A DNA stretch of 64,000 nucleotides, from the NCBI GenBank assembly GCA_020186115.1, contig WSYJ01000146.1, positions 248,001 through 312,000 of the forward strand, read 5' to 3'. The notes below the pieces were generated by a model. That model saw only the letters and a list, made by a program, of their open reading frames with translations. It did no database searches and had not been told where the DNA came from. This stretch comes from Histomonas meleagridis (lineage: Eukaryota; Parabasalia; Tritrichomonadida; Dientamoebidae). How positions within the stretch are numbered: the stretch's first letter is position 1; every line of letters begins with the position of its first letter. Positions 7,005 through 64,000 of this stretch are shown in pieces. Position numbers and translations under genes: made by a program.

Positions 7005-7656
7005 TCATCTTTTTTTATGGTTTAGAAGTAAATTAACTATTTCTGTGTCACCATAATTAGATGCTATCACAAGTGCAGTTTCAAATCATTTGTGTAATTT
7101 CCAATGATTATTTTGATATATTCAACAATTAATGAAATGAATATTATATTAAATAAAGGAATTTCTTTAACATTAATATCTATTCCTTCTTGTGAAAGTA
7201 GTAACTTAACTATATCTGTATGGCCTTTATAAGATGCGTAAATAAGTGCTGTCCAAAGTAATTCAAATAATTCCCAAAAATTATTTTTAAACCCATTATA
7301 ATTGATATAGGCACTAAACAAAGTATATAAATATCTTTAGCATTAATTTCTATTCCTTTTTGTTGAAGAAGTAATTTAACTATTTCTGTGTGACCATTTG
7401 AGGTTGAAAACATAAGTGCTGTCCAAAATATTTTTAAATAATTTCCAAATATTATTTTGAAATAAAAAACTATTAAAATAAATATTTAATAAAACAAATA
7501 AACATCTTTAACATTAATATCAATTCCTTCTTGTTCAAGAAGTATTTTAACTATTTCTGTATGACCCTTTTCAGATGCTTTCATCAGTGCTGTATTAAAT
7601 AATTTAAATAATTTCCAAATCTGATTTTGTTATCCAATAAGATCATTAATAAATTT
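7005..7656 (-). repeat. Ankyrin module array A (3' part of gene A)
   Basis: There are four ankyrin modules read on the minus strand (TALMKASEKGHTEIVKILL, TALMFSTSNGHTEIVKLLL, TALIYASYKGHTDIVKLLL, TALVIASNYGDTEIVNLLL). They are separated by AT-rich spacers of 81, 81, 80 and 83 nt, counting the one after the DUF3447 exon. Each full module is 30 codons and uninterrupted. The last ends LNHKKR and then TGA at 7005-7007. Spacer lengths put successive modules in different frames, so the array is not readable as one ORF from genomic DNA. Spacers share a 3' core (TTTGGAAATTATTTAAATT, with substitutions). Probably exons of gene A separated by short introns of unknown type. Confidence 0.75.
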
Positions 7657-8844
7657 TTAATAAAATAGAAAAATATTTTGTTCATTAATATCTATTCCTT
7701 CATACTCAAGAATAATTTTTAAAAGTTCAATATTATCCGAACTTGAAGAAAATATTAAAATATCTTTAGGAATTTGATTATGTTGAAGAAAATACGCAAC
7801 AAGATATAAGTTTCCGGTTTTTGCTGCTTTACCAATATCGATTTTGTCATTTTTGGCGAAATCTTTTTCCAAATATGATAGAGTTTCATAATTCCCATAG
7901 TAAATACAAAAGTTTATCAATTTATCGATAATTAATTTATTTTCATAAAGATATTTTAAGATATTATTTTGATGAAATTTAATTGCTGTTTCATATGCAT
8001 CTTCAAATGATGAATGATTTTGTTCACATAGATGAAGAATTTCTTCATTTCCACATGCAACTGCATATTTACCTGTGTTTTCTACATTTGCACCATTCAT
8101 AAGTAAATATTTAAAACATTTAACAGATGAAAAAAATGCTGCAAAATCAATTAATGAAACATTTTCTTTATTAACAAATGAACATCTTTCATAAAGTGAT
8201 GGTTCAATTTTTTGATTAAAATCAAAATTTGTTTGTGATGATATTTCTTGAAGTTTTTCGATTTCATCATTTCGAATTATTTTTGCAATTTCACTTGGAT
8301 TATGTCCTTCTTCAATTAATTGCTTATGAAGTTCAAAATCATTCTTTGAAAGTTCTTCATAGTTTTCTATAAAATTTGTTTCTGCTATTAAATTCGCATT
8401 TATTTTATTTTCTTTGTCTGTTTTGTAATGTGCAAAATATTTTGTTTTAATATTTTTTACGATATTTATATTTGCCCAATTTCTTTTGATTATATTCTCC
8501 AGAAGATAATAAGCTTCTTGTTCTCTTATACCAGAGATATGCTTTATAAAAACATCAATGATTTTTGGAATCTTTTTATTTATATTAACTTCTTTTGCTT
8601 GAATTAATTCTAAATAATTTAATGTAACATCACATGAGTTCTTTTGGGAATAAAATGCATAATAAACCAGATTAATAATGATAATATTAAATGAATATGG
8701 AAAATTTGTATCAAATAATTTAACTGTTTGATTAACACTTGAATCAATATTTTCTTGAGTTAAACAAAATATAATACGTTCGAGTTTTAGGGGAATTTCC
8801 ATATTTACAGATTGAATGTCAATTTTTTTGATTTCTTTTATCAT
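7657..8844 (-). CDS. DUF3447/ankyrin protein A, uninterrupted 5' exon
   Basis: The open frame encodes 395 aa starting at ATG 8844. Residues ~1-190 match the N-terminal region shared with loci B and C (helical, HISGIREQEAYYLL, FAHYKTDKEN). Residues ~190-330 carry the trichomonad DUF3447 block (ELHKQLIEEGHNPSEIAKIIRNDEIEKLQ, YERCSFVNKENVSLIDFAAFF, GKYAVACGNEEILHLCEQNHSSF). It ends with divergent ankyrin repeats (KTGNLYLVAYFLQHN, LLKIILEYEGIDIN). The frame stops inside the first spacer of a downstream ankyrin array (7005-7656) whose four modules are all open and end in a natural stop at 7005-7007. I therefore infer that the real gene is 7005-8844 with internal removed segments. Ankyrin repeats generally mediate protein binding; the role of DUF3447 is unknown. 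Confidence 0.8.
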   Translation of the reverse strand: MIKEIKKIDIQSVNMEIPLKLERIIFCLTQENIDSSVNQTVKLFDTNFPYSFNIIIINLVYYAFYSQKNSCDVTLNYLELIQAKEVNINKKIPKIIDVFIKHISGIREQEAYYLLENIIKRNWANINIVKNIKTKYFAHYKTDKENKINANLIAETNFIENYEELSKNDFELHKQLIEEGHNPSEIAKIIRNDEIEKLQEISSQTNFDFNQKIEPSLYERCSFVNKENVSLIDFAAFFSSVKCFKYLLMNGANVENTGKYAVACGNEEILHLCEQNHSSFEDAYETAIKFHQNNILKYLYENKLIIDKLINFCIYYGNYETLSYLEKDFAKNDKIDIGKAAKTGNLYLVAYFLQHNQIPKDILIFSSSSDNIELLKIILEYEGIDINEQNIFLFY

Positions 8845-9221
8845 AAGCGATGTAATGCTTGCTTAAATGCGCTTTGAGTTGAGTTATCAGTTTTTTCCAA
8901 TGGAAAAGTCCGTTTAAATACAATTTTCTGAAATCTTGTCAAAAAATGCTTTTAATGTTTTGTATTCATTTTCCCCAAAATAAATAAAAAGTTAGATTCC
9001 ATATCGAATACAAATTTGTTGGATTTTTTAAAAAAATATAGAATTGGAGTTGAAAGATTTTATTAAGAGATGCAGATGAAAAAAATTTGAATTTTTGCCT
9101 TCATAAATATTTATTTTAAAACAATTGCCAATGCACAACCTATTTAAAACATTTAAAGGACACTGTGAAGAAAAATAAATATATGATTTCAAAGATCAAT
9201 ACATATAAAATTTTTTATAAA
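8845..9221. other. Intergenic region upstream of gene A
   Basis: AT-rich; I see no ORF, RNA gene or convincing promoter motif. Confidence 0.4.
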
Positions 9222-15629: not shown

Positions 15630-16861
15630 TCAAAGATAAAAAGAGAGTAATTTAACTATTTCTGTGTGGCCACGACGAGATGCCAAAATAAGTGCTGTCC
15701 AAAATAATTTAAATAATTTCCAAATATTATTTTGAAATATCAGATTATTAAAATAAATTTTAATTCAAACAAATAAATATTTTTAGCATTAATATCAATT
15801 CCTTCTTGTTCAAGAAGTAATTTAACTATTTCTGTATGACCAAATTGAGATGCTTTCATAAGTGCTGTATCAAATAATTTAAATAATTTCCAAATATTAT
15901 TTTGAAATATAAAATTATTAAAATAAATACGATATTTAGCATTAATATCAATTCCTTCTTGTTCAAGAAGTAATTTAACTATTTCTGTATGACCATTTTC
16001 AGATGCCCAAATAAGTGCTGTTCTAAATTATTTAAATAATTTCCAAATATTATTTTGAAATATAAAATTATTAAAATAAATACGATATAAAACAAATTTA
16101 TATTTTTAGCATTAATATCAATTCCTTCTTGTTCAAGAAGTAATTTAACTATTTCTGTGTGGCCAAAACCAGATGCTTCAATAAGTGCTGTTTGAAATAA
16201 TTTAAATAATTTTCAAATATTGTATTGAAATTTCAAATTATTAAAATAAATATTAAATAAAACAAATAAATATTATCTTTAGCATTAATATCAATTCCTT
16301 CTTGTTCAAGAAGTAATTTAACTATTCCAGTATGACCATATAGAGATGCTAAAATAAGTGCTGTCCAAAATAATTTAAATAATTTCCAAATATTATTTTG
16401 AAATATTAAATAATAATAATAAATTTTAAATAAAACAAATAAATGTTTTTAGCATTAATATCAATTCCTTCTTGTTCAAGAAGTAATTTAACTATTTCCG
16501 TATGACCATTTTTAGATGCCCAAATAAGTGCTGTTCTAAATTATTTAAATAATTTCCAAATATTATTTTGAAATATCAAATTATTAAAATAAATATTATC
16601 TTTAGCATTAATATCAATTCCTTCTTGTTCAAGAAGTAATTTAACTATTTCCGTATGACCATTTTTAGATGCTGTTATAAGTGCTGTCCAAAATAATTTA
16701 AATAATTTCCAAATATTATTTTGAAATATCAAATTATTAAAATAAATATTATCTTTAGCATTAATATCAATTCCTTCTTGTTCAAGAAGTAATTTAACTA
16801 TTTCCGTATGACCATTTTTAGATGCTGTTATAAGTGCTGTTTGAAATAATTTAAATAATTT
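15630..16861 (-). repeat. Ankyrin module array B (3' part of gene B)
   Basis: Eight modules read on the minus strand, all open, for example TALITASKNGHTEIVKLLL, TALIWASKNGHTEIV, TALILASLYGHTGIV, TALIEASGFGHTEIV, TALMKASQFGHTEIV; the last reads TALILASRRGHTEIVKLLSFYL then TGA. Seven full modules are 30 codons ending EQEGIDINAK(D/N/Y). Spacers of 80 nt (three), 83 nt (one) and 63 nt (four) separate them. The 63-nt spacers equal an added AAT/AAA-type codon plus a 60-nt form that looks like the 80-nt spacer after a 20-nt deletion between ATTTATTT direct repeats; these happen to keep the frame open. High module identity implies recent duplication. Confidence 0.8.
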
Positions 16862-18115
16862 TCAAATATTATTTTGAAATATCAAATTATTAAAATAAAT
16901 ATTATCTTTAGCATTAATATCAATTCCTTCTTGTTCGAGAATATATTTAACCAGTTCAACATTACCTGATTCCACACCAAAAATTAAAATATTTTTTGGA
17001 ATTTTTGTATTTTTGAGAAAATGTTTAAAAAGATATAAGTTTCCAATCTTTGCTGTTTCATTAATGATATTATCATTAATTATCATTCCTTTTTCTTCTA
17101 AAAATGAAAGAACTTCATAATTTCCACTGTTAATACAATAAACTATCAAATCATTATCTGATTTTTCTTCTAATTTATTTTCATAAAGATATTTAAAGAT
17201 ATCATTATGATGAAATTTAATTGCTGTTTCATACGCATCTTTAAATGATGAATGATTCTGTTCACATAAATGAATGATTTCTTCATTTCCACCTGCAACT
17301 GCATATTTACCTGTGTTTTCTACATTTGCACCATTCATAAGTAAATGTTTAAAACATTTAATTGATCCAAAAAATGCTGCAAAATCAATTAATGAGACAT
17401 TTTTTTTATTAACAAAGGAACATCTTTCATAAAGTGATTCTTTAATTTTTTGATTAAAATCAAAATTTGTTTGTGATGATATTTCTTGAAGTTTTTCTAT
17501 TTCATCATTTCGAATTATTTTTTCAATTTCATTAGGATTATGTCCTTCTTTAATATATTGTTTATGAAGTTCCCAATCATTTTGTGAAAGTTTTATATAA
17601 TTATCATTATAATATTTATAAAAATTATCAAAATTTTTTTTTTGTTTTTCGTTTTCATTTTTTCCTCTGTAATGTGCAAAATATTTTGATTTAATGTTTT
17701 TAATAATATCTTTATGTATTAAATTGTATTCAATCATTTTATCAATTAGATAATATGCTTCTTGTGAATTGATTTCAGAAATATATTTATAGAAAAATTC
17801 AATGATTTTTGGAATGTTTTTATATATTTCTTCTTCTTTTTGAATTGATTGTAAATAATTAACATAAATAGGACTTTCTTTATGTTGTGAATAAAATGCA
17901 AAGTAAACTAAATTACATATAATAAAATTAAATGAATATGTAAAAGTTATATCAAATAATTTCATTGTTTGTTGAGTTGAAAAAACAAGATTCTCTTCTG
18001 TTAAATTAAATATTAATTGCTTAAGAGAAATAAGTTCTCCTAGACCAATGGTTTGACTTCCAAAATTAATGGTATCTCTTTTTAAATTATTTGTAGTACA
18101 ATAAAAATCATTCAT
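16862..18115 (-). CDS. DUF3447/ankyrin protein B, uninterrupted 5' exon
   Basis: 417 aa from ATG 18115. It is collinear with protein A and locus C: N-terminal helical region (LISLKQLIFNLTEENLVFS, INSQEAYYLIDKM, KYFAHYRGKNENEKQ), then DUF3447 (ELHKQYIKEGHNPNEIEKII, YERCSFVNKKNVSLIDFAAFF, GKYAVAGGNEEIIHLCEQNHSSF), then degenerate repeats and VELVKYILEQEGIDINAKD. The frame stops at 16862-16864 inside the next spacer. Downstream, eight ankyrin modules (15630-16842) continue, and the last carries a natural TGA at 15630-15632. The complete gene is therefore probably 15630-18115. Confidence 0.82.
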   Translation of the reverse strand: MNDFYCTTNNLKRDTINFGSQTIGLGELISLKQLIFNLTEENLVFSTQQTMKLFDITFTYSFNFIICNLVYFAFYSQHKESPIYVNYLQSIQKEEEIYKNIPKIIEFFYKYISEINSQEAYYLIDKMIEYNLIHKDIIKNIKSKYFAHYRGKNENEKQKKNFDNFYKYYNDNYIKLSQNDWELHKQYIKEGHNPNEIEKIIRNDEIEKLQEISSQTNFDFNQKIKESLYERCSFVNKKNVSLIDFAAFFGSIKCFKHLLMNGANVENTGKYAVAGGNEEIIHLCEQNHSSFKDAYETAIKFHHNDIFKYLYENKLEEKSDNDLIVYCINSGNYEVLSFLEEKGMIINDNIINETAKIGNLYLFKHFLKNTKIPKNILIFGVESGNVELVKYILEQEGIDINAKDNIYFNNLIFQNNI

Positions 18116-18487
18116 TTCTGACCAAATGACACTTTTTCATTTACAATTTTTTTAATTTAAATATCAAGAAATATGTTAAAAATGAGACATAATAACATAA
18201 ATTTTCACGTTTTATCATTATATTCGTTAGCTTTCTTGATTTGGTGTTGTTTAGAGTTCCTTTAAATATGTTTAATTTCTGTTTCCATTAATTTTTTGAT
18301 TTCCGTTTTTTCAGTTCAAGAATAATTAAATACGACTAACAATAAGAGATAACATAAGAACATGTTAACACTTCATTAAGTGCAAATTAAAAAAATTTTT
18401 GCTTTTTACTCAGAGGGATTTTTACTTTTGATTTTTGAACAATTTTTGGCGGTTTTTCCACACTGGACCTTTTGACACTTTTCATTC
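18116..18487. other. Divergent intergenic region
   Basis: Shared upstream region of ankyrin gene B (minus) and the RRM gene (plus). AT-rich, with GGCGGTTTTTCCACAC about 40 bp before the RRM ATG. No ORF was seen. Confidence 0.4.
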
Positions 18488-24831: not shown

Positions 24832-27800
24832 ATGTCATGGGCGAATTCGCCTAATAATGGAAATCAATTTCAAAACTACACAAATTCAGGAAATGCACGA
24901 AATCTATTTGGTCAACCTAATCCACAAAATTTTGTAAATTATCAGCCAACAATTCCTCAAGCTCCTCAACAAAATTACACATTTCATTTTGACATGGATT
25001 CTAGCAATACTCAAGAACAACAATTTCAACAAGAAAAAAAAATTGATATGCCAGAAAAAGATATATTTGAACTTTATGATCCATTTAATCCAAGTCCAAG
25101 GAAAACACCACAAATTACGAAGTATGTACAACCTGTGCAAGTGACACCTACCAAACCTAAAAATGATTTTCATCCGCAAAAACAAGATATTAAAAAAATA
25201 CGAGATGTTTTCGGATCTATTGATCACTCAAACACTAGTATGCAAAGCACTGATTTTAGTTCAGGACATCAATTTAATAATTCTAATCAATCATATAATT
25301 CCGCACCAAATTTCCCTATACTTGACTTAACTACAAGTGGAACTACATCGCAGGATAGCTTCAACTTACCATTTTCATCAGATAATTCACCAAATCAATC
25401 ATTTGACGGAAATAATTTTTCATCTCCAATTACGCCATTTTATAATCCAATAGCAGATTCGCCACTAAAAAGTTCGGCAAATCAGAATAACAATGACTTT
25501 GTTTTCATTGGGAATACCCAAAGCACAAGAACAAATGAAAATGATTTCAATTTCACAAACACTCAAAATAATTCTTTTAATAGTGCGCAAAATAATGCAA
25601 ACGATTATAATTCGTTTGGAAAAGAAAATAATAAAACAAATGCAAATGACTATAATACATTTGGTAATGATAATGCGACGAAGAAGGAAAATGAATATAA
25701 TCCATTTGGTAATGCTCAAAATAAAGAAAATGGTCATAATCAGTTTGACAATGAGAAGAATAAAACAAATGAAAATAATTATAACCCATTTACTAATAAC
25801 CAAAATAATACAAAGAAAGAAGACGAATATAATCCATTTGGTAATGCACAAAACAAAGAAAGTAATTATAATCCGTTTGCTATTCCACAAAGCAACACGG
25901 CAAAGAAAGAAGACGAATATAATCCGTTTGGTAATAACCAAAATAATGCAAACAAAGAAAACGAATATAATCCGTTTGGTAATGCACAAAACAAAGAAAG
26001 TAATTATAATCCATTTGATAATGAAAGCAATAAAACAAAAGAAAGTAATTATAATCCGTTTGCTAATACACAAAATAAGATGACAAAGAAGGAAAACGAC
26101 TTTAATCCATTTGGCGCACAAACGCCCGCAAAATCGGCAAATCAAAAGGAAGAGCGCAAGCCAAAGAATAAGTCAATTAATTCCATTGACGAAATTCGGA
26201 GTTTGTTTGGATCTCTTCACGATGAAACCGCAGATAATGCATCACAACAAAATGTTATTGAAGATAATACACAGCAAAACAATAACAACAATAACCAAAT
26301 CTTTAATCCTTTTGGAAATAACAATGATTTTATAAATTTGGGAAATAATAATAATGATAGTTCAATTGGTACACATGTTAAAAATGAAATCGAAGAACTT
26401 CATAAAAGAAAACCAATGATGGAAACGATAAATGCGTCTGATGGAATAACAGCTTACGAAAACACAAATAATCCATTTGATTTAATGGAATATCGAAATG
26501 AAACTCATAATGAAAATGAAAATCAATTCTTTGTTATGTTTGGAAATGAAAATAATAATAATCAAACATTTAATAATGAAGAAAAGAAAAATGATGATAA
26601 AAATAATCAAATTTTTGATATGTTTAATACAGAAAACAATTCATCAAATACAAATACAAACAGTTTCACTTTATTCGGTGACGAAAAAGTTGAAAGTAAA
26701 CAAAATGAACAAATTTTTGATTCGTTTTCGAATGGATTAAACAAAGCAAATGAAAATAATATAAAAGAAAACAATAAACAAAGTTTTGATCCATTTAACA
26801 CACAAAACACATCAACGCCAACAAAGATAAACAGTTCTGATTTATTCGGCAATACAAAAGATGCCAACAAAGAAGTTTTCGATCCATTCAGCAAAGAAAA
26901 CAAAACAACAAATTCAAGTCAAACAAAGACAAAAAGTTTTGGCTTATTCGATGATGATAAATCAGAAGATGATTCACATAATGAAAAAGAAAGTTTTGAT
27001 CCATTTGGCACTCATAACAATACAATAAATTCGACTCCGACAAAGACAAATAGTTCTGATTTATTCGGTGATACAAAAGATGCCAACAAAGAAGTTTTCG
27101 ATCCATTCAGCAAAGAAAACAATGCAACGAATTCAACGCCAACGAAGACAAAAAGTTTTGGATTATTTAATGACGACAATTCAGATGATGAAGAACATAA
27201 CACAAAGAAAAGTTCTGATCCATTTAGCACACAAAACACATCAACAAAGATAAACAGTTCTGATTTATTCGTTGGTACAAAAGATGCCAACAAAGAAGTT
27301 TTTGATCCATTTAGCAAAGAAAACAAAACAACAAATTCAACACCAACAAAGACAAAAAGTTTTGGCTTATTCGATGATGACAAACACGAAAGTCGCGCAA
27401 TCAAGCCAAAGCGTTCCGGCTTATTTGCTGATGACAGCTCAGATGATGACTCAAATGATGCAAAAGGAAGCAACAATAAAGTTTTTGATGCATTTGGCAC
27501 AACGAAGTCGCCACCAGCAAAGACAAAGAGTTCTGATGATGACAAATCGCAGAATTTGAGTAGCACCGAAACCACAGCACAGCATCAACCAAAACGTTCT
27601 GGATTATTCGATGATGAAGAACATAACAAACAAAGTTTCGATCCGTTTGGCACACAAAACACTTCAACAAAGATAAATAGTTCTGATTTATTCGGCAACA
27701 CAAAAGATGCCAACAAAGAAGTTTTCGATCCATTCAGCAAAGAAAACAAAACAACAAATTCAAGTCAAACAAAGACAAAAAGTTTTGGATTATTTAACGA

Positions 27801-28647
27801 TGACAAATCAGAAGATGACTCGCATAATGAAAAAGAAAGTTTTGATCCATTTGGCACTCATAACAATACAACAAATTCGACTCCGACAAAGACAAATAGT
27901 TCTGATTTATTCGGTGATACAAAAGATGCCAACAAAGAAGTTTTCGATCCATTCAGCAAAGAAAACAAAACAACAAATTCAAGTCAAACAAAGACAAAAA
28001 GTTTTGGATTATTTAATGATGACAAATCAGAAGATGACTTGCATAATGAAAAAGAAAGTTTCGACCCATTCAACACACAAAACAATTCAACAAATTCAAG
28101 TCAAAAAACTTTTGGATTATTCAACGATAATACTTCCCAAGTCACAACAGAAGAAAATAAACAAATTTCTAACACCGATGCCACAGCGCAATCACAAAAT
28201 GCATTCGCCTTATTCGATGACGAAGACAAATCCTCTAACGCAATCAAGCAAAGCTTTGATACATTCAACAAGTCCAAAGGTTTGTTCGACGATTCGCAAT
28301 TTGCAGGCGACGAATCGTTTGATCCGTTTCACACATCGCAAAACAAAACATTTGGTTTATTCGGGGACGATAAATCGGAATCATTTGCTCCTTTTCACAA
28401 CAAAAGTAACAAAAGTTCGCATCTGTTCGATGACGACGCTTCGCCTGCACCGCCCGCAACAGGTTTGTCGGCGGCGCTGAAGTGCTACATACGGAATCAC
28501 GTCGACGGCTTCGACGAGGAGGGGCTTGACGCAGAGATAAAGCCGTACGTCGAAACACCAAAGTTCTCTGATACAGTTGCAGCGAAAGAACTCGCGGAAT
28601 TTGTTCGTAACAAATTTGGGAACGAAACTTCTTTTTTGGATGTGTAA
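24832..28647 (+). CDS. NPF/DPF-repeat endocytic-adaptor-like protein
   Basis: 1,271 aa, almost wholly disordered and N/S/T/K/D-rich. The N-terminal third has about eleven NPF tripeptides in a repeat such as EYNPFGNAQNKESN (NPF is the ligand of EH domains). The C-terminal two thirds have about a dozen DPF tripeptides in VFDPFSKENKTTNS and SFDPFGT units, alternating with SSDLFG and KSFGLFDDD (DPF/DxF are ligands of AP-2-type adaptor ears). A short folded-looking tail follows (ALKCYIRNHVDGFDEEGL, VAAKELAEFVRNKFGNETSF). This is the layout of epsin/Eps15-like clathrin accessory proteins but with no ENTH or EH domain, so it would be a pure linear-motif scaffold. The DPF region contains near-identical DNA repeats (26.8-28.1 kb). 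The last ~200 bp are clearly GC-richer. Confidence 0.75.
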   Translation: MSWANSPNNGNQFQNYTNSGNARNLFGQPNPQNFVNYQPTIPQAPQQNYTFHFDMDSSNTQEQQFQQEKKIDMPEKDIFELYDPFNPSPRKTPQITKYVQPVQVTPTKPKNDFHPQKQDIKKIRDVFGSIDHSNTSMQSTDFSSGHQFNNSNQSYNSAPNFPILDLTTSGTTSQDSFNLPFSSDNSPNQSFDGNNFSSPITPFYNPIADSPLKSSANQNNNDFVFIGNTQSTRTNENDFNFTNTQNNSFNSAQNNANDYNSFGKENNKTNANDYNTFGNDNATKKENEYNPFGNAQNKENGHNQFDNEKNKTNENNYNPFTNNQNNTKKEDEYNPFGNAQNKESNYNPFAIPQSNTAKKEDEYNPFGNNQNNANKENEYNPFGNAQNKESNYNPFDNESNKTKESNYNPFANTQNKMTKKENDFNPFGAQTPAKSANQKEERKPKNKSINSIDEIRSLFGSLHDETADNASQQNVIEDNTQQNNNNNNQIFNPFGNNNDFINLGNNNNDSSIGTHVKNEIEELHKRKPMMETINASDGITAYENTNNPFDLMEYRNETHNENENQFFVMFGNENNNNQTFNNEEKKNDDKNNQIFDMFNTENNSSNTNTNSFTLFGDEKVESKQNEQIFDSFSNGLNKANENNIKENNKQSFDPFNTQNTSTPTKINSSDLFGNTKDANKEVFDPFSKENKTTNSSQTKTKSFGLFDDDKSEDDSHNEKESFDPFGTHNNTINSTPTKTNSSDLFGDTKDANKEVFDPFSKENNATNSTPTKTKSFGLFNDDNSDDEEHNTKKSSDPFSTQNTSTKINSSDLFVGTKDANKEVFDPFSKENKTTNSTPTKTKSFGLFDDDKHESRAIKPKRSGLFADDSSDDDSNDAKGSNNKVFDAFGTTKSPPAKTKSSDDDKSQNLSSTETTAQHQPKRSGLFDDEEHNKQSFDPFGTQNTSTKINSSDLFGNTKDANKEVFDPFSKENKTTNSSQTKTKSFGLFNDDKSEDDSHNEKESFDPFGTHNNTTNSTPTKTNSSDLFGDTKDANKEVFDPFSKENKTTNSSQTKTKSFGLFNDDKSEDDLHNEKESFDPFNTQNNSTNSSQKTFGLFNDNTSQVTTEENKQISNTDATAQSQNAFALFDDEDKSSNAIKQSFDTFNKSKGLFDDSQFAGDESFDPFHTSQNKTFGLFGDDKSESFAPFHNKSNKSSHLFDDDASPAPPATGLSAALKCYIRNHVDGFDEEGLDAEIKPYVETPKFSDTVAAKELAEFVRNKFGNETSFLDV
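26790..28110 (+). repeat. Tandem coding repeats in the adaptor gene
   Basis: Blocks of roughly 60-80 codons encoding SDLFG-TKDANKEVFDPFSKENK-TTNS-TKTKSFGLF-DDDKSEDD recur about five times with few changes. Repeat numbers could differ between strains by unequal recombination. Confidence 0.7.
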
Positions 28648-29236: not shown

Positions 29237-30028
29237 TTATTGGCTTTGTTGGAGTTTCCTTTGTTCTGCAATCTCTTGAGCAGTCGGAAGTCTTGGCTTT
29301 TTCGTTTCCACCTTTTTCAGCTCTACTTTCTCTTCCTTAATTAGTTCATGGAAAGTTCGATTCTTACTATCTCTTGGAAGGTCTTCAGGCAATCTTTGAG
29401 TTCCTTCCTTTTCAGCTATTTCTTTTTGTTCAGCGATTATCTCAGCTGAAGGTAAAGTTGGTTTCTTTTGATCAACTTTCTTTAGTTCGACCTTCTCTTC
29501 TTTTATTAGTTCATGGAAAGTTCGGTTCATTTTGTCACGTGGTAAATCCTCTGGTAATCTTTGGATGCCTTCTTTTTCAGCTATTTCCTTTTGTTCTGCG
29601 AGTACTTTTGCTGAAGGAAGAATTGGCTTCTTTTGATCAACTTTCTTGAGTTCGACTTTTTCTTCTTTTATTAGTTCATGGAAAGTTCGGTTCATTTTAT
29701 CATGTGGTAAATCCTCTGGTAACCTTTGGATGCCTTCTTTTTCAGCTAACTCTTTTTGTTCAGCTATTTCTGCGGCAGTCGGAATTCGAGGTATCTTTTG
29801 ATTAACTTTCTTTAGTTCGACTTTCTCTTCTTTTATTAGTTCATGAAATGTTCGGTTCATTTTATCATGTGGTAAATCCTCTGGTAATCTTTGAATGCCT
29901 TCTTTTTCAGCTATTTCTTTTTGTTCAGCTATTTCAGATGCAGTTGGAAACCGAGGTTTCTTTGTGTCTGTTTTCTTGAGATGAACACCGTTTTCAATTA
30001 AGATCAAAGTCTCCTTTTTGCAAGTCAT
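29237..30028 (-). CDS. Five-module beta-thymosin/WH2-type actin-binding protein
   Basis: 263 aa made of five ~51-residue units. Each has a helix and linker as in beta-thymosin: LIKEEKVELKKVDQKKP followed by (F/L/I)P(T/S)A..IAEQKEIAEKEG. The LKKT-like core (LKKTDTKKP in the first unit, LKKV in the others) and the C-terminal EIAEQKE helix correspond to the thymosin-beta LKKTET and TIEQEKQ elements. Between modules lies a constant spacer IQRLPEDLPHDKMNRTFHE. Multi-repeat thymosins (ciboulot, tetrathymosin) bind several actin monomers and regulate filament assembly. The first module starts directly after MTCKKETLILIENGVH. Highly similar DNA repeats indicate duplication. Residues around the LKK core fit actin binding, but activity is inferred. 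Confidence 0.78.
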   Translation of the reverse strand: MTCKKETLILIENGVHLKKTDTKKPRFPTASEIAEQKEIAEKEGIQRLPEDLPHDKMNRTFHELIKEEKVELKKVNQKIPRIPTAAEIAEQKELAEKEGIQRLPEDLPHDKMNRTFHELIKEEKVELKKVDQKKPILPSAKVLAEQKEIAEKEGIQRLPEDLPRDKMNRTFHELIKEEKVELKKVDQKKPTLPSAEIIAEQKEIAEKEGTQRLPEDLPRDSKNRTFHELIKEEKVELKKVETKKPRLPTAQEIAEQRKLQQSQ

Positions 30029-30901
30029 GAGAGTGATGTGAAGATGAATAGTGGTAACTGAAAATTTGATATAAATTTCGAGAGATTCATAAATTTCTTA
30101 TGAAAGATTCCTTTGAAATTTGAATCCTTTAATAAAATTAGTCAGAAAACATCGCATTGAATCTTAGTATAAAGTGAAAAAAGTTTTTATTTGGATCTCA
30201 AAAGTGCTTAGAAAGAAAACAATAAAAAGATAAAAAATTGGTAATCATCCAAAGAAATATACGTTATCATTATATAATTTCAATTTTAAGTGTTTAGCTT
30301 TTCATTTCAGAAACAATTCTTCAAATATGTGATATAATTAGGTCAATATTTGTGTATTTCCTGTACTAAATAACTTCCCTGTTGTGATAACATGTATCAA
30401 ATGATTGTTATTTTTGAAGCATATAACCTAAACCATGAAGCACGCAGCTTATAAAAATTTAATAAATAAAGAACATATAACATATATATAAAATTAATTT
30501 TAAATATTATGTATCATAATAATATATCAATTTTTTTTAAATGATCATTTTCATTCCTTTATTATATTAATATTAATAATAAAGGAAAAAATGTAAATTA
30601 TTAATTTTCAATAACAAAAATGGAATTAATTATCGAGACATTGATAAAATAAATAAATTAAAACAATATACCATTACATTATGGTGTATATCAAGATTGG
30701 CCGTTAATTTTTTTTTTTAAATCAAGAATTAATACACATATTATATAGTTAGCTTAATACATGAGAAAGAAGCAAAATCTAACGTGAAATTTTGGTTTGT
30801 AAAATGCAAAATTTCAATTAAAACACCATCTTACGATTTTCGACCGTTTATTTCCTTTAAAGGAAAAGTGACAGTATTAATGGCGTTTTAATTAACCGGA
30901 A
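30029..30901. other. Long AT-rich intergenic region
   Basis: About 870 bp with no ORF. CGACCGTTTA at 30841-30850 followed by TTTCCTTTAAAGG resembles promoter material for the Rab relic that follows. Confidence 0.4.
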
Positions 30902-47210: not shown

Positions 47211-48097
47211 TTGAGTAAGATAAAGAACGTTAATATGCGTTTATTATGTCTTTGAAGATGTGGTGTGTTCTAAAATCAGCAAATAAAGAAAGATTTTACG
47301 GCTTTGTGTTAATCGATATAAAGTACACAAATGACGTCATGCTTTTCATATCAAATGTCTTCACCAAAAAGTGTTCCTATCGTTCAGAAGAAATAAATGC
47401 ATTTTAACGTCTGAGATGCCAATTTATTAACGGATTTATATACATTTCTTACAAAAGATTTAATTTTTTGTTTTCCTCCATAAAGATAATATGGGGCTTA
47501 GCATTAACACTACACAAACAAACAAACATGAGCAGACTTCTGCAAAAGAATATATTACTTATTCAATAAGTCTAAAAAAAAATTATTTATAATTGAAATG
47601 AAAACAATATTAAATCACAAGCTCAATCTGCTGTGAATTCATATGACATTAATTATTTTAATTAACATTAATTATTTTACTAATTTTTAATTTCAAAATA
47701 ATGTTTGGAAATCATTTTTAATATTTCAAACAGCACTTATGCTAACATGTGAAAAAGGTAACAAAGAAATTACTTGATGAAAAAGACAAAAAATAATAAT
47801 CAATATTGAAAGAATAGACAATAAAATATTAAAGACATCATTTTCTTTTATAATGCGAAAATTATGTAAACTTCTCAAAATATTTTGAGTGTACTCAAAA
47901 GCTTCTGTCCAATCGAAGGATGTCTTCTGTTATTTTCTAAAATGAAGAAATGATATCACGTGATTGGACCTCAAATACAAATGTTGAGTTACCATGCAGA
48001 TTTACTAACATTTAGATGCAATTGGAAATATTTCCTGCTTAAAATGCTGTTAACCCATAAAATTTTACGTTAAGTCACTTCACCGAAAGTTTTTAAA
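47211..48097. other. Intergenic region with an isolated ankyrin-module relic
   Basis: At 47690-47780 on the plus strand, the 3' core of the ankyrin spacer (TTTCAAAATAATGTTTGG and following bases) is directly joined to ACAGCACTTATG, reading TALMLTCEKGNKEIT and then a stop. This is a lone decayed module far from the four arrays. Otherwise AT-rich without ORFs; the last 100 bp are upstream of the SCYL2-like gene. Confidence 0.55.
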
Positions 48098-50665: not shown

Positions 50666-50866
50666 AATGTTTTAATTATGTTCAAATTTCGTAATTTGCA
50701 AAACACTTTTCGATCGGATTTAATAGAATTATGTTCAAAAAGTGGAATCGATACTTTGGAACGCATTTTTGTTAGGGATCGGTTCTTATTTGTTTGGGTA
50801 ATTTATGATTGAAAACTTTACGAGCACAGAATTGACAAAAACGTCAAATGCCACTGAAATTGCACA

Positions 50867-52084
50867 ATGTTCTTTCTCTCCTTCGTGTGCGCTTCCTACT
50901 CTGCAAACTATGCAGTCCTTATCGCTGGCTCAAAGGGATATGAAAATTATCGTCATCAATCAGATATCTTTCAAGCTTATCAACTTCTCCGTGAACGTGG
51001 ATTTAATGATGAAAATATCATTTTAATGGCTTATGATGATATAGCAGAAAACGAAAAGAACATGTTCAAAGGAACCATATTTAACCTTGGTCTTTTCGAC
51101 AATGTTTACCCAGGTACCGATAAAATCGATTATAAAGGTTCTAGTGTTACAGCAACAAACTTTATAAATGTTATAACAGGAACTGTTACTTCATCCACAA
51201 AAGTAGTTCTCAAATCAGGACCTGAAGATAATGTTTATATTTTCTATAATGATCATGGAGCCAAAGGTTTACTTGCCATGCCTACTGGTGGTTCACTTTA
51301 CGCCAACAAACTTCGAACTGCCATTTTAAAGATGCAAGAAAAGAAGATGTTCAAGAAATTATTCTTCACAATTGAAGCCTGTTACTCTGGCTCTGTTGGA
51401 GAAATGCTCAATGATATCCCCAATGTTGCTGTTCTTACAGCAGCCAATGGTGAAGAATCATCATATGCCACTGGCTTTGATATATTAATCCAAACATTCC
51501 GTACCAATCAATTTTCACAACAATTCTTCAAGGCCGCCAAGAAGTCACCCACTGCCACGATTGAAGAAATTTGGGAAAAAGTTTCTAAGAAAGTCAGCAA
51601 AAGTCATGTCATGAAATATGGACCAGAAGATTACATCAAAACATCCAAGCTTTCCGAGTTCTGGCTTACACCTAATGAAGATTCTAATGATGAAGAACTT
51701 CAACTTCAATATGAACCGACATCAATCATATCACAATTCAATACAACATTATCATATGCAAAGAGAAGGATCGCAGAGGCAGCTACAAAAGAAGAAAGAT
51801 TGGACGCTGAGTTCGATTACATCGGAGAAAAGTTACACCGCAAGTTAACGGACTTCGTCTTCGATAACATCACAAAGCAGTTCACTTCCTTACGTGAGGT
51901 GCCCGTTAAGGAAATTGACTGGGACTGCTACGAGAAAGCTGTGGAAACATTCCGTCAAAAATGCGGTGATGTCGGTGAATATGAATTACAAAGACTTTCT
52001 TTGTTCTCAGACATGTGCGCAAGTGATAAAATTGACGGCATCAAACAGAAAATTGAAAAAATTTGCCCATCAAAGAGATGGTAA
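50867..52084 (+). CDS. Legumain-like asparaginyl endopeptidase (family C13)
   Basis: 405 aa. The signal peptide is MFFLSFVCASYSA; the mature domain opens NYAVLIAGSKGYENYRHQSD. The catalytic dyad is visible: His130 in YNDHGAKG and Cys172 in EACYSGS. Other C13 blocks are IILMAYDD, YKGSSVTATNF and TAANGEESSYA. A helical C-terminal prodomain-like region with late cysteines (WDCYEKA, QKCGDV, DMCAS, KICPSKRW) is typical of legumains rather than GPI8, which usually has a C-terminal TM absent here. It cleaves after Asn in lysosomes or at the surface; trichomonad legumains have been linked to adherence. Start ATG 50867 follows GAAATTGCACA. Confidence 0.9.
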   Translation: MFFLSFVCASYSANYAVLIAGSKGYENYRHQSDIFQAYQLLRERGFNDENIILMAYDDIAENEKNMFKGTIFNLGLFDNVYPGTDKIDYKGSSVTATNFINVITGTVTSSTKVVLKSGPEDNVYIFYNDHGAKGLLAMPTGGSLYANKLRTAILKMQEKKMFKKLFFTIEACYSGSVGEMLNDIPNVAVLTAANGEESSYATGFDILIQTFRTNQFSQQFFKAAKKSPTATIEEIWEKVSKKVSKSHVMKYGPEDYIKTSKLSEFWLTPNEDSNDEELQLQYEPTSIISQFNTTLSYAKRRIAEAATKEERLDAEFDYIGEKLHRKLTDFVFDNITKQFTSLREVPVKEIDWDCYEKAVETFRQKCGDVGEYELQRLSLFSDMCASDKIDGIKQKIEKICPSKRW

Positions 52085-57481: not shown

Positions 57482-58538
57482 ATGGGAAACAAGCAAAGCA
57501 TAATCAAACCAGTACCATTACATTATTCAAAAAGTAAATATGTGTACTCATTTCAGACACTTGAAAAAATTATTTTTGAATTAAATAAAGATAATATCGT
57601 TGAATCTGTTCAAGTAATTATGAATCTTGTCGATGATTTCCCATTCAATATTAATATAACTATTAGTAGATTAATATTCTTCTTTTCTTTCACAAATGAA
57701 GGATTTTGATCTTTATCTCGACTTCATGAAAAAAGTTGAATTTAAAGAAAAAGAATTAAACAAAAGTGATTTTGATTTAATCGATACATTTTCTTATTTC
57801 CTTCTTAACATAGAATCGCAAGAATCTTATTTTCTTCTTGAAAAATTGATTGAGTTGGGGTTTGTCTCATTAGATATAGTTAAAAAAAAGGAAACTTTTT
57901 ATTTTGCGCATCATCTTTCCAAAGAATTATTAAATAATCTATTTGAAAATAGCATCACTCCTTTCCATAAATATTTCACAGAGAACATTGCAGAACTTCA
58001 ACAAAACAATTGGGAATTGCATAAACATTTAATTCGAGAAGGAGTTAATCCAAATGAAATTGCTAAAGCAATTCGGAATGACGATATTAAACAATTGCAA
58101 ATGTTATCAACGAGACAAGATTTTAATGTTAATTTAATGATTGAGCCATCACTTTATGAAAGATGTTCATTCATTAATGAAAAAAATGTGACACTAATTG
58201 ATTATGCAGCATTTTTTGGATCAGTAAAATGTTTTAAATTTTTACTTATGAATAATGCAAATGTAATAAACACAGGCAAATACGCAGTTGCAGGTGGAAA
58301 TGAAGAAATTATTCATTTGTGTGAACAAAATCATTCATCATTTGAAGGTTCATATGAAGCAGCAATTGAATTTTATCGAAATGATATTTTTCATTATATT
58401 TATGAAAATAAAATCATTAATTATTCTATTCAGAGAATTATTGAAATCTTTTTCTTCCCAACAAATATATCTATTAATATCGAATTATTTACTTTCTTCC
58501 TTGAGCAGGAAATTAATGTTAACAAAAATATTTTTTAA
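57482..58538 (+). pseudogene. DUF3447/ankyrin protein C, frameshifted 5' part
   Basis: ATG 57482 starts MGNKQSIIKPVPLHYSKSKY (also a possible myristoylation start). The frame runs collinear with proteins A and B to IFFFSFTNEGF and then stops at 57709. The continuation is in another frame from about 57696 (KDFDLYLDFMKKVEFKEKEL, NIESQESYFLLEKLIELG, then DUF3447: ELHKHLIREGVNPNEIAKAI, YERCSFINEKNVTLIDYAAFF, GKYAVAGGNEEIIHLCEQNHSSF). One net frameshift is needed. Downstream array C also contains a stop-bearing module and a foreign insertion, so this locus is most likely a pseudogene; a short intron at ~57690 is an alternative. Confidence 0.7.
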
Positions 58539-59905
58539 TAATTTTTGTATTTCGTTTTTATAATTTAATATTTAAAAATTATATTTGGATTAATTTCTTT
58601 GAGTCATTTGATAAAGAATATATACTGTGGGCATCCAGAAGTGGGTTTATTGAGATTGTGTACTTACTTCTTGAGTTAAAAACAATTGATGTTAATGTTA
58701 AAGATATTAATATATTTTGTTTGGTGTTTATTTCAAGAAAATGAAGTTTTAAAAATTCATTTGGAAATAGTTAAAATTATTTTGGACACCACTCATTTAT
58801 GCATCTCATGGAGGATTTGTTGAACTAGTTAAATTACTTCTTAAACAAAAAGTTATAGATATTGATGTTAAAGATATTTTATTGGTTAATTGAATTTTTT
58901 ATTTATTGATTTGATATCTCTTCATTAAATTTGGGAAATGTTAAATTTATTTTATACAGCACTTATGAGAGCATCTGCATCTGGCCATACCGACATACTC
59001 AAAATCCTAATTCAATACGAAGAAATTGATCTTAATGAAGAAAATGTATATGAATTTTATTTAATGTATGTTTTAGTAATTTAATGCTTAATAATATAAT
59101 TAGGAAACTGATTAATTTATTTGAAACAATATTTATGCTTGCAGTTAGAAATGGTAATATTGCTATAGTTAAATATCTTTGTGAACAATATGAAATTGAT
59201 CTTAGAGTTATAAACATTTATTTGTTTAATTTAAAGTTATCATATCCAAATTGATGTTTTTTATAGTTATTCGAAAATTCTTCGATATATTTAACACATT
59301 ACTTATTTCTGCAGCTATATATGGTCATACAGAAACTGCAAAATATCTTATTGAACAAGAAGTTATTGATATAAATGCACAAAATGTTCGAATCAAAAAT
59401 TTAAAGTCGAATTCAAAAAAATGATGTATTAAAATAATAATTGAAACGCATTTAAATTATTTGAAACAGCTCTTATTTGTGCATCTAAAAATGGTCATTT
59501 AGAAATAGTTAAATTACTTCTTGAACAAGAAGGAATTGATATAAATGCTAAAGATATCGGTTCATGTCATTTAAAATAATTTTTGTTAATTTGAAATTTC
59601 AAAATAATATTTGGAAATTATTCAAATTATATTATACAGCACTAATTAGATCAACATATAATAGGCATATTAATATAACAAAATAACTTCTTAATCAGGA
59701 AGGTTGTAATATCAATGCTAAAAATATTCAATTACTTATTAGGTGATATAATAATTTTATTTAAAGTTTCGATTTAAAATTTGGTAATTAATATAATTAT
59801 TTGAAACAGCATTCTTTTGTGCAGTAAAATCGAACAATTTAAACATGGTAAAATTACTTCTTGAACAAGAGAGATGTGATATAAATACGAAAAATAATCA
59901 TTTCA
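58530..59905 (+). repeat. Ankyrin module array C, 170-bp period
   Basis: Ankyrin modules of exactly 90 nt alternate with spacers of exactly 80 nt from 58706 to 59805 (spacers start at 58706, 58876, 59046, 59216, 59386, 59556 and 59726), so the period is 170 bp for six consecutive steps. Module peptides include TPLIYASHGGFVELVKLLL, TALMRASASGHTDILKILI, TLLISAAIYGHTETAKYLI and TALICASKNGHLEIVKLLL. Sequence similarity between spacers is low, yet length is constant. One module (59636-59725) has an in-frame TAA. The array is cut at about 59.9 kb by a foreign fragment and resumes at 61.45 kb. Confidence 0.8.
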
Positions 59906-59909
59906 TTAT

Positions 59910-60076
59910 AGTACAGTTATTAACCCTGGGAACTATAAATTAATAATTACCGCAAATCATAGTATAGAAGATACATTCATTGGCATAGATCAAGTGGACA
60001 AGGATGCCATTAAAAGAAGATTTAAGGAAATAGAAGTCAAAAGCCGAGAGGACGTTAATCTACTGAGAGTTTGGTA
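59910..60076 (+). pseudogene. C-terminal remnant, possibly helicase-like
   Basis: Frame without a start: HYSTVINPGNYKLIITANHS then a segment with EDTFIGIDQVDKDAIKRRFK, ending NLLRVW and TAA. The order (I/L)IITAN ... D..(A/I)KRRF resembles the end of superfamily-3/AAA-type replication helicases (motif C Asn and arginine finger). This is only pattern likeness, based on about 50 residues. Confidence 0.35.
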
Positions 60077-61444: not shown

Positions 61445-61724
61445 GTGTTATGTGGAAATTATTTAAATTGTTTTTTACACCACTTATATTGGCATCTTGT
61501 GTTGGATACATTGATATGGTTAAGTTACTCATAGAACAGAAAGGAATTGACATCGACGCAGAAAATATTAATTTATTAATATCAATATTTTTATTAAAAG
61601 TTTGGAATATCAAAACATTATTTGGAAATTGCAAATAATATTTTTAACAGCATTTGATTGGGCATATAAAAAAAATTACACTGAAATAGTCAAACTACTC
61701 AATGAGAAAGGTGCAAAAAATTAG
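61445..61724 (+). repeat. Resumed ankyrin array C with natural terminal stop
   Basis: It starts inside a spacer 3' core (TGGAAATTATTTAAATTG), then one full module (TPLILASCVGYIDMVKLLIE...GIDIDAEN), an 80-nt spacer (61567-61646), and a terminal module TAFDWAYKKNYTEIVKLLNE ending KGAKN and TAG at 61722-61724. This is the expected end of gene C, now separated from its 5' part by the foreign fragment. Confidence 0.7.
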
Positions 61725-61917
61725 TAATAAGTTAGCAATCTCAAAATCATATGATTTAAATTAAAATTTTCAAAACAAAGACGGAGATCTCAACTTTTTG
61801 AATGCATTTAACGCTCATCTCAAAAAAGTTATATCGGTTTACTTTGAGAGATTTACATATTTTCAAAAATAACATTTATTCTTTTAATAAAATAATGTCT
61901 TTATTCAATAAATTTTC

Positions 61918-64000
61918 TTAATTATAATTTTTTTTATGAAATAACTTAACAATTTTTTGATTACCTTTTGAAGATGCTAAATCAAGTGCTGTTTCAAATA
62001 ATTTCATTAATTTCCAAATATTATTTTGAAATATTATATCATTTAATTGAATTTTAAAGAAATTTAATAAATAGTTTTAGCTTTAATATCAATATCTTTT
62101 TGTTCAAGAAGTAATTTAACTATTTCAGCATGACCATTTCTCGATGCTTTCATGAGTGCTGTACAAAATATTTTAAGTAAATTCCAAATATTATCTTAAA
62201 ATATCAAATTATTATAATAAATATCAAATAAAACAACAAAAATTCATCTTTAGCATTAATATCAATTCCTTTTTGTTCAAGAAGTAATTTAACAATTTCT
62301 GTGTGACCATTTTTAGCTGCAAACACAACTGCTGTTTCAAGAATTTTCAATAAATCCCAAATACACATTTAACACATCCAATTTTATAAATAAATTCTAA
62401 ACAAAATATAAAAACAATATCTTGAGCATTAACATCAATTCCTTCTTTTCCTAAAAGTATTTTGGTTATTTCAGTGTATCCACTTGAAGATGCCTTTATA
62501 AGTGCTGTCTGAAACAATATGAATATTTTCCAAACATTATTAAGAAATCCATTTTAATTAATTTAAACCTTGAACAAAACAATCAAAAATTTTTGGCATT
62601 AATATTAATTCCTTCTTTTTCGAGAAGTATTTTAACTATTTCTTTATGACCATTTTTTGAGGCCCAAATTAATGGTGTTTCAAATTATATAATAAAACTT
62701 TAAATTTTGGATTAAAAACCAAAGTAATTATAAATAATATCGATTATAGTAAATAAAAATTATCTATAACATTTAAAGCAATTCTTTTATTATCCAAAAG
62801 TAATTTAACAAATTCTAAATTACCATCTCTAGATGCAAAAATAAGTGCTGTTCTAAATACTTTAAATAATTTCCAAATATTATTTTGAAATATAAAATTA
62901 TTGAAAATAAATATTAAATAAAACAAATAAATATCTTTATAATTAATATCAATTCCTTTTTGTTCAAGAAGTAATTTAACTATTTCTATATGACCATTTG
63001 AAGATGCTAATATAAGTGCTATATTAAATATTTTAAATAATTTCCAAATAGTATTTTGAAACATTAAATTATTAAAATAAATTTTAAATAAAACAAATAA
63101 ATTTTATAATTAATATCAATTCCTTTTTGTTCAAGAAGTAATTTAACTATTTCTATATGACCATTTGAAGATGCAAAAATAAGTGCTGTTCTAAATAATT
63201 TAAATAATTTCCAAATATTATTTTGAAACATTAAATTATTAAAATAAATTTTAAATAAAACAAATAAATATCTTTAGCATTAATATCAATTCCTTTTTGT
63301 TCAAGAAGTAATTTAACTATTTTTGCATAACCTTTTCCAGATGCAATCATAAGTGCTGTTTCAAACAATTTAAATAATTTTTAAATAATATCATGGATTA
63401 TTCCAAAATTATTAAAATAAATATTAAATAAAACAAATAAATATCTTTAGCATTAATATCAATTCCTTTTTGTTCAAGAAGTAATTTAACTATTTTTGCA
63501 TAACCTTTTCCAGATGCAATCATAAGTGCTGTTTCAAACAATTTAAATAATTTTTAAATAATATCATGGATTATTCCAAAATTATTAAAATAAATATTAA
63601 ATAAAACAAATAAATATCTTTATAATTAATATCAATTCCTTTTTGTTCAAGAAGTAATTTAACTATTTCTATATGACCATTTGAAGATGCAAAAATAAGT
63701 GCTGTTCTAAATAATTTAAATAATTTCCAAATATTATTTTCAAATATAAAATTATTAAAATAAATTTTATCTTTAGCATTAATATCAATTCCTTTTTGTT
63801 CAAGAAGTAATTTAACTATTTTTGCATAACCTTTTCCAGATGCAATCATAAGTGCTGTATTAAATATTTTAAATAATTTTCAAATATTATTTTGAAATCC
63901 AAAATTATTAAAATAAATTTTAAATAAAATAAATGAATACCTTTAGCATTAATATCAATTCCTTTTTGTTCAAGAAGTAATTTAACTATTTTTGCATAAC
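61918..64000 (-). repeat. Ankyrin module array D, gene runs off the right edge
   Basis: About thirteen minus-strand modules, every one open, for example TALMIASGKGYAKIVKLLLE, TALIFASSNGHIEIVKLLLE, TALIFASRDGNLEFVKLLL, TPLIWASKNGHKEIVKILL, TALIKASSSGYTEITKILL and TAVVFAAKNGHTEIVKLLL, ending TALDLASSKGNQKIVKLFHK, KNYN and TAA at 61918-61920. Spacers are 80 nt (five), 83 nt, 81 nt and 63 nt. One module lacks the usual Asp codon (YK instead of YKD) and others have one extra codon at that place, so indels there are whole codons. The DUF3447 part would lie beyond base 64000. Two neighbouring units (63.25-63.6 kb) share an identical rearranged spacer, showing recent duplication. Confidence 0.8.

Follow-up and report, generated by a model that had tools for sequence, protein, structure and literature searches.

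Interrupted ankyrin arrays in the window

We analysed a window of 64,000 nucleotides (nt) from the genome assembly of Histomonas meleagridis, a parasite of poultry (43.28 Mb in 121 contigs; window G000:C82:248001-312000), in which four loci, A to D, carry arrays of ankyrin modules separated by AT-rich spacers. Every spacer is a run of elements of mostly 17 nt, each followed by a single codon. An initial annotation of this DNA had reported that the modules of loci A, B and D are free of stops and that the last module of each array ends in its own stop codon. Both statements were borne out, with four modules in A, eight in B and 12 whole modules in D. A fourth copy, locus C, lies on the plus strand and was not among the loci of that annotation.

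Locus A occupies the minus strand (7674-7005). Its N-terminal open frame (7657..8862, 401 codons from stop to stop) matches the Pfam families Ank_4, DUF3447, Ank_2 and Ank and ends within the first spacer (7597..7674), in which elements at 7674-7658, 7654-7637 (18 nt), 7633-7617 and 7613-7597 alternate with codons for K, W, G and N. Module 1 (7504..7593, 30 codons) is followed by spacer 2 (7426..7503; elements 7503-7487, 7483-7467, 7463-7447 and the 18-nt 7443-7426; codons N, F, G, W), module 2 (7333..7422), spacer 3 (7256..7332; elements 7332-7316, 7312-7296, 7292-7276 and 7272-7256; codons S, W, G, W), module 3 (7163..7252), spacer 4 (7083..7162; elements 7162-7146, 7142-7126, 7119-7103 and 7099-7083; codons N, L, N, G, E) and the last module (7005..7079). 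The four modules behind the first spacer contain no stop until the natural one at 7007-7005. Locus B, also on the minus strand, comprises an N-terminal open frame of 424 codons with DUF3447 and ankyrin matches in Pfam (16862..18136) and an array (15630..16903) with 28 elements of 17 nt, in which spacers of 63, 63, 63, 80, 83, 80, 63 and 80 nt follow each other and the modules stay open until the stop at 15632-15630. The array of locus D (61918..64000, minus strand) has spacers of 63-83 nt, one 18-nt element (62912-62895) and a further module cut by the window edge; its whole modules are free of stops up to the natural one at 61920-61918.

In locus C, the N-terminal frame (57675..58538, plus strand, 287 codons) matches Ank above the cut-off and DUF3447 under it. 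The array behind it (58616..59895) has eight diverged modules and seven 80-nt spacers with a period of exactly 170 nt. This period is kept although identity to the consensus is no more than 62-71% in six of these spacers. The eight main modules contain one stop, in module 59636. Two last modules follow at 61477..61736, with one 80-nt spacer between them (elements 61567-61583, 61587-61603, 61607-61623 and 61627-61643). They are split from the rest by about 1.6 kb foreign to the array (59896-61476, 1.58 kb). A minus-strand frame (60654-61358) overlaps this interruption, which is possibly a mobile insertion.

Spacers consist of 17-nt elements and single codons

For comparison, we parsed 35 strand-specific arrays from 32 sequences of the assembly, keeping module hits of at least 12 bits, or at least 8 bits for the parsing and counting of elements and for one count of upstream modules. 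The loci were picked by their likeness to the window repeat, to its N-terminal frame or to an ankyrin profile, with L044-L049 chosen at sites of an exact 17-mer, and are a non-random sample. Antisense hits on the minus strand of locus L020 were left out, as were identical duplicates of spacers and cores in all counts of distinct sequences and the links of L004 and L009 in the element parse.

Spacer lengths are sharply quantised. Counted as links, 176 spacers are 80 nt long and 50 are 63 nt long, followed by 83 nt (13), 66 nt (5), 77 nt (4) and 81 nt (4), and lengths of 20, 40, 60, 100, 120, 140 and 160 nt occur in other family members. The two main classes correspond to 4x17+12 and 3x17+12, and most of the remaining lengths obey 17m+3c. 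The 80-nt spacer reads [ATTTATTTGTTTTATTT]AAA[ATTTATTTTAATAATTT]GAT[ATTTCAAAATAATATTT]GGA[AATTATTTAAATTATTT]xxx, followed by ACA GCA CTT, so that its four triplets give K-D-G-x before T-A-L, the canonical ankyrin turn including its glycine. The 63-nt class lacks the first element and retains its codon; both main classes therefore leave 12 nt. This agrees with the remark of the initial annotation that about 12 nt retained under a common boundary rule would produce the usual repeat of 34 residues. The same grammar accounts for the whole-codon insertions and losses just before the spacers and for the codon-like last triplet, which had been noted there as well.

The parsed elements are 17 nt long in 1033 of 1049 cases; the other 16 measure 15, 16, 18, 19 or 20 nt, and each of the three 81-nt spacers of the window contains one 18-nt element. 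The parser admits 15-20 nt and its scoring favours 17 nt, so that this figure is not a blind estimate of length. However, the unparsed spacer lengths of 80 and 63 nt agree with a 17-nt unit. By eye, the spacers of L035, L036 and L038 consist of tandem 20-nt units with 17 conserved and 3 variable nt. In the sub-family formed by these loci and L039, the 17+3 unit has multiplied in the manner of a minisatellite to between one and eight or more units per loop, and each unit would alter the length of the loop by a single residue.

Coding constraint within the spacers

The four triplets of the 80-nt spacer (offsets 17, 37, 57 and 77), hereafter slots, contain no stop codon among 644 triplets from 161 distinct spacers. 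The third slot encodes glycine in 143 of these spacers (GGA in 134, GGG in 4, GGT in 4 and GGC in 1). In 42 distinct 63-nt spacers, the 126 triplets are likewise free of stops and glycine is present in 37. For both classes together (203 distinct spacers), 0 of 812 slots are stops against 45.6 expected from column composition, glycine occurs in 180 of 203, and none of 1000 column permutations of the 812 slots was as poor in stops as observed. Shifting the register by -2, -1, +1 or +2 raised the stops to 9, 308, 6 and 10 of 644 and left glycine in 0, 0, 4 and 0 of 161 spacers. The slots are also distinguished by their GC content in the 80-nt class (0.29; 0.28 one base earlier and 0.03-0.20 at other offsets).

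Within slots 1, 2 and 4, the bases covary, TGG for example appearing as a whole codon, whereas the borders show almost no covariation, which indicates that the borders of elements are borders of codons. Slot 3, nearly always GGA, is uninformative in this respect, and a weak signal of 0.08 bit was found at its 3' border. When a single spacer was taken from each of 32 arrays, the glycine frequency was 0.89 and the 128 triplets were free of stops; the 26 most diverged 80-nt spacers (<75% identity to the consensus, from 11 arrays) retain glycine in 21 and have no stops in 104 triplets. A reference set of element-free loops collected with a strict pattern has glycine in 11 of 13 cases and was too small for further use.

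Ankyrin modules and N-terminal frames

The core between spacers consists of 30 codons (T-A-L-x-x-A-S-x-x-G-H-T-E-I-V-K-L-L-L-E-Q-E-G-I-D-I-N-A-K-D) and recurs in all four loci of the window as well as at the other loci. Together with the four slot codons, it gives the 34 residues of an ankyrin repeat (33-34 residues) with the D-x-x-G-x-T-(A/P)-L turn. The threonine of the turn is present in 220 of 260 cores, and all three N-terminal frames tested have Pfam ankyrin hits. Among 302 cores of 90 nt, the length to which the stop counts were restricted, 286 are free of stops. The 280 distinct cores contain 21 stops, natural stops of last modules included, against 186 +/- 12 expected when the substitutions of each core are placed at random. 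This deficit exceeds chance, and the neutral build-up of stops that a decayed tail would show is not observed.

Codon position 2 is the least variable in the cores (mean entropy of 0.54 bits vs 0.83 and 0.81 for the other two). The most variable of the 34 residue positions are c5, c8, s4, s2, s1 and c9, with c28 close to c9 (2.28 vs 2.31 bits). Three of the six are lone codons between elements, and the glycine slot ranks among the conserved positions. We take five of the six to be positions that are randomised in designed ankyrins. We read this pattern as pointing to selection on the joined protein, the genes presumably being expressed. Because the codons between elements include some of the most variable residues of the repeat, the system probably sits where binding specificity is set.

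The N-terminal frames of the family are mostly intact: 111 of 121 match rows are free of stops, most at 56-72% identity (116 of 2285 candidates scored). Database proteins of the family from H. meleagridis carry the name 'cask-interacting protein (caskin)'. Behind their last elements, L044 and L048 share a C-terminal tail (...IKSSFSIRN-NEAYIANN), which lies in another frame in L048 and suggests a conserved C terminus of the family.

Elements in the genome and in other species

One variant of the element, RTATGTTTTAATAATTT, occurs 2,234 times in the genome, and its reversed control occurs six times. Six low-hit sites of this variant that we retrieved all lie in the ankyrin gene family with spacers, some of them in decayed copies as judged by eye. 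The exact consensus form of G-[element 4]-x-TAL was found 1,092 times, its control not at all. Since this form is present in 66 of 222 retrieved 80- and 63-nt links, we put the number of loops, as a rough estimate, at several thousand and that of elements at about ten thousand.

Elements are not restricted to the family of the window. L004, L050, L052 and L055 are other, GC-richer ankyrin genes in which element-free loops stand beside loops that have one to three elements at the corresponding place. L050 has both D-D-G-[17]-W-S-P-L-H and the element-free N-N-E-G-W-T-P-L-H, L052 has D-S-[17]-A-[17]-G-[17]-Y-T-A-I-H and D-I-A-[17]-G-[17]-R-T-P-L-H, and L055 has N-K-S-G-[17]-W-T-S-L-H. Between named flanks of these four genes, 10 of 12 elements are 17 nt and two are 19 nt long. 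At 14 loci, 24 of 47 distances between anchors equal the element-free 21 nt, and distances of 38 nt (3), 55 nt (2) and 66 nt (2) correspond to 21+17, 21+34 and 15+51. Divided by eye, L016 reads [17]K[17]D[17]G-E-TAL and lacks the fourth element. L009, which belongs to the same N-terminal family, has three element-free links of 12 nt, and no elements were seen by eye in L051 and L054. Directly observed are the 17+3 grammar, its register, the constraint on slots and on modules, and the recurrence of these elements in further ankyrin genes of the genome.

Outside ankyrin loops, we saw no sign of elements. In about 300 kb scanned for skipped stretches, 17 nt did not stand out (3 of 217 skips), and a second frame scan of the retrieved DNA returned three candidates of 17 nt, compared with 4-12 for other lengths; both scans are weak tests. 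Stops were present in 29 Ank_2 rows among about 150 listed of 220, in one LRR_5 row among about 150 listed of 202, and in 7 of 133 rows of kinase matches (132 of 635 candidates scored). Four kinase matches (C108:92803, C48:408626, C84:1579808 and C112:732639) exceed the common 750-760 nt by about 50-65 nt and have in-frame stops; perhaps they contain canonical introns, usable for deriving the splice consensus of the species. Another kinase match (G000:C78:376002-376739) lies inside an open frame with a reported length of 22,955 codons, which, if real, would be an exceptionally large gene.

A database sequence from another species, P0014, is at most 57% identical to the places scored in H. meleagridis (106 rows; 93 of 9529 candidates scored). 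Its open frame crosses a spacer of the 63-nt type that can be divided, at the protein level, as N-K-[17]-Y-[17]-G-[17]-K-T-A-L. The homologous P0029 protein of Tritrichomonas foetus has the contiguous loops N-M-F-G-W-T-P, N-N-H-G-K-T-A and N-E-G-W-T. The division of P0014 suggests that the elements are probably shared with the relative species, and the uninterrupted loops of P0029 suggest that at least one T. foetus gene lacks them. In the open-access literature, we found no report of 17-nt introns or of introns in ankyrin loops in parabasalids (subscription papers and preprints lay outside this search). On ankyrins or transcripts of Histomonas or Dientamoeba, the only mention seen was a table line on a KANK1-like protein for Histomonas (PMC10063853).

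Splice signals

The initial annotation had remarked that the spacers have neither the trichomonad splice signals nor consistent GT-AG ends and that they almost always start with RT. Dissection into elements confirms these points. In 493 distinct 17-mers, position 1 is A (0.78) or G (0.17), position 2 is T (0.74) and position 14 is A (0.79). The 692 elements of the 80-nt class begin with AT (428), AA (165) or GT (56) and end in TTT (549), TAT (44) or TTC (19), and do not conform to the GT-AG rule of U2-type introns. Nor do they resemble canonical trichomonad introns with a GTATGT-type start and a ACTAACACACAG-type end. The pattern GTAYGT-N10-40-ACTAACACACAG, in that spacing only, has no match in the whole genome, and ACTAACACACAG occurs three times against two for the control, none of the three, as judged by eye, within an ankyrin array. 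In another gene, L042, an intron of the canonical kind (GTATGT ... ACTAACACACAG) was identified by eye, and in L043 the 3' end of one precedes a kinase frame, which implies that a spliceosome and ordinary splicing are present in the lineage. Two features of the elements are those of introns. Their length is as rigid as that of ultra-short introns of 15-17 nt, both in the main family and in the other ankyrin genes, and their flanks read on as one protein, as judged from the constraint on slots and modules and from the homologous loops without elements.

Interpretation and alternatives

We propose that in this gene family the loop of each ankyrin repeat is encoded by single codons with non-coding stretches of 17 nt in between, in the order D-(17)-x-(17)-x-(17)-G-(17)-x-T-A-L. 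The elements would be dropped precisely where codons meet, either ahead of translation or in its course. Joined in this way, the repeats of about 34 residues would make up an uninterrupted ankyrin solenoid that follows an ordinary N-terminal domain. The reading that we consider likely is that the elements are ultra-short non-GT-AG introns of ankyrin loops, removed so that single-codon 'exons' are joined. The step of removal may be RNA splicing of introns with an RT start and no AG end. Removal from RNA is in our judgement the most probable route, followed by an untranslated tail and by skipping at the level of translation. The spacers themselves carry stops and frame changes, as initially described: 63 of the 262 spacers in 37 strand-specific arrays are divisible by 3, 41 of these are also open, and a straight reading is possible in 1 of the 37 arrays. 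The initial proposal that spacers are removed from functional coding sequence is supported by the constraint on slots and modules. As for a new class of short intron, the removal-like constraint and the lack of a known signal stand, but the unit is the 17-nt element, mostly three or four per repeat, and not the spacer.

Several observations weigh against the removal of elements. The argument for it is one of coding constraint, no known splice signal matches the elements, and single-codon exons that lie between introns of 17 nt are not known to us from any other system. None of 15 database relatives retrieved represents a spliced product. In 10 of them, the frame closes right at the N-A-K-D-like end of the last repeat without a spacer or shortly past it, at the first spacer or just within. 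Neither scan for skipped stretches supported a 17-nt unit beyond ankyrin loops. Some copies have decayed: 16 of 280 distinct cores hold stops, natural stops of last modules counted in, and L045 and L046 are decayed as well. The grammar is not without exceptions: from anchor to anchor, in a count that left out L041-L043, 213 of 265 distances in the main family fit 17e+3k and 52 do not, 9 of 47 misfit in the other ankyrin loci, and such a grid fits about three in ten distances by chance. Two spacers of the window (59386-59465 and the 77-nt spacer of locus D) were split by the parser differently from the simple rule. Furthermore, offset 0 is equally free of stops (0 of 644), and offsets 1, 13 and 14 have almost none, because triplets there are of the ATT or TTT kind. 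Freedom from stops alone does not fix the register, which is set by glycine, GC content and covariation.

The early ends of the database frames would also be expected if only the N-terminal frame were translated and the spaced modules were an untranslated or dying tail that had been coding before the elements arrived. The intact N-terminal frames that mostly end in a spacer, the stops in some modules and the interruption of locus C fit this explanation. However, the elements are homologous across many arrays and would therefore predate their spread, slots and modules have diverged without the stops expected of such a tail, and the variation falls on residues that vary in binding ankyrins. The most diverged spacers still retain their glycine, and L044 has a coding C terminus behind its elements with a counterpart in L048. 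We consider an untranslated tail unlikely. The fixed length, the fixed codon border, the AT-richness and the missing splice signal would suit programmed bypassing, in which the mRNA keeps the elements and the ribosome hops over them many times per protein. Known cases of bypassing involve renewed pairing of the tRNA with a landing codon that matches. In the arrays, different codons precede the element (D, K/N, Y/D or G), and its last three bases are mostly TTT; take-off and landing codons do not match, and tens of hops per protein would be required. Bypassing accordingly appears doubtful.

The remaining explanations have difficulty with the unit itself. A single intron per repeat, as proposed in the initial annotation, would measure 68-71 or 51-54 nt, leave the same 9-12 nt and restore the frame, but slots 1-3 would be intronic despite the glycine at slot 3, the freedom from stops and the covariation within the codons of slots 1 and 2. 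The retained 12 nt are four separate, coding-constrained codons between elements, so that the slots do not lie inside one long intron, and spacers of one to eight units as well as lone elements elsewhere suit a 17-nt unit. We regard a single intron as very improbable. Translation of the spacer as part of a 51-residue repeat, with frame-shifted copies as pseudogenes, finds some support in the 63-nt class, which is in frame and open in 33 of 42 cases; the main 80-nt class always shifts the frame, and with so few readable spacers and arrays this is hardly credible. The many dispersed arrays with common modules could also be silent donor cassettes for gene conversion into an expressed gene. However, all loop codons of the main class are flanked by elements, donation would presumably import them, and the problem of removal would persist, which leaves the cassettes with next to no probability. 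One programmed frameshift per spacer was rejected, being feasible in 101 of 129 80-nt spacers and impossible in 28. A 20-bp minisatellite with lengths of 20, 40, ... 160 was kept as a description only, its 20-bp unit being 17+3.

For the removal of elements as introns, the genome report on the virulent strain provides a measure (43 Mb, 28% GC; 573 annotated introns, at most one per gene; PMC8529796). If the elements are removed, one gene could contain tens of introns and the genome thousands, and the products of one large gene family would be far longer than their open frames suggest. We lean towards a new intron-like class of exactly 17 nt, without GT-AG, present in about ten thousand copies in an intron-poor protist and its relatives, and removed with precision from a single loop of the ankyrin repeat. 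Such a class would call for either a spliceosome able to handle exons of 3 nt and borders of the AT...TT kind, or a novel mechanism of RNA processing or translation. If true, the removal of 17 nt between single-codon exons without a GT-AG rule would test the abilities of the spliceosome or of other machinery.

Other genes in the window

Outside the arrays, a minus-strand gene (29237-30097) encodes several 55-residue repeats (RLPEDLPxDKxNRTFHELIKEEKVELKKV) that by eye resemble the actin-binding thymosin-beta/actobindin repeats. A legumain-type cysteine peptidase (Pfam C13 with prodomain) is encoded on the plus strand (50858-52084). Two further plus-strand genes (24832-28647 and 48074-50665) have long N/Q/S-rich repeats with DPF/NPF and DLF motifs and resemble clients of endocytic adaptors, again by eye.

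Comparison with known systems

Non-coding gaps between codons at fixed places are known from programmed translational bypassing in phage T4 gene 60 and in the mitochondria of Magnusiomyces. The elements of H. meleagridis differ from both in the lack of matching take-off and landing codons and in the far larger number of gaps per gene.

Among spliceosomal introns, the closest in length are those of Mikrocytos mackini, with 224 introns in 179 genes, all of 16 or 17 nt (217 and 7) and conserved in sequence (PMC10245619). The elements share this uniform length and conservation. The Mikrocytos introns were compared with transcript data (PMC10245619). In H. meleagridis, the elements number in the thousands, belong to one kind of protein loop and can form runs of four or more, parted by one codon each. 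Stentor coeruleus is similar in its rigidly short introns, 8173 of 8806 being 15 nt and the rest 16 nt, annotated genome-wide (PMC9505925). These are mostly GU-AG, unlike the elements with their AT, AA or GT starts and TTT ends. In a study of trichomonad type A and type B introns, those of type B in T. vaginalis measure 23-25 nt and are mostly poly-T between the motifs; GYAYGY or GTWYWD served as the 5' motif. All 63 T. vaginalis introns of this study are GT/AG with the branch site fused to the 3' motif, and genes with several introns are absent in T. vaginalis and number three, with two introns each, in T. stableri (PMC12316389). Many elements start with RTATGT or RTTTAT, similar to these 5' motifs, but they have neither GT/AG ends nor a branch site fused to a 3' motif. 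Given the rigid introns of 15-17 nt in Stentor and mikrocytids and of 23 nt in T. vaginalis, a length of 17 nt is within reach, but the introns of Stentor and Trichomonas have GT-AG, and we saw no description of single-codon exons. The nonconventional introns of euglenids have non-canonical borders and an unexplained mode of removal, as do the elements. The ends of the euglenid introns are brought close to each other by a stable RNA structure (PMC6221363, PMC4770533, PMC11170887). For elements of 17 nt, such a structure seems hardly possible.

The nearest protein relatives are the trichomonad ankyrin/DUF3447 proteins represented by T. foetus P0029, which belong to the same domain family and have the same loop consensus. 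The loop that is contiguous in the T. foetus gene is split by elements in H. meleagridis.

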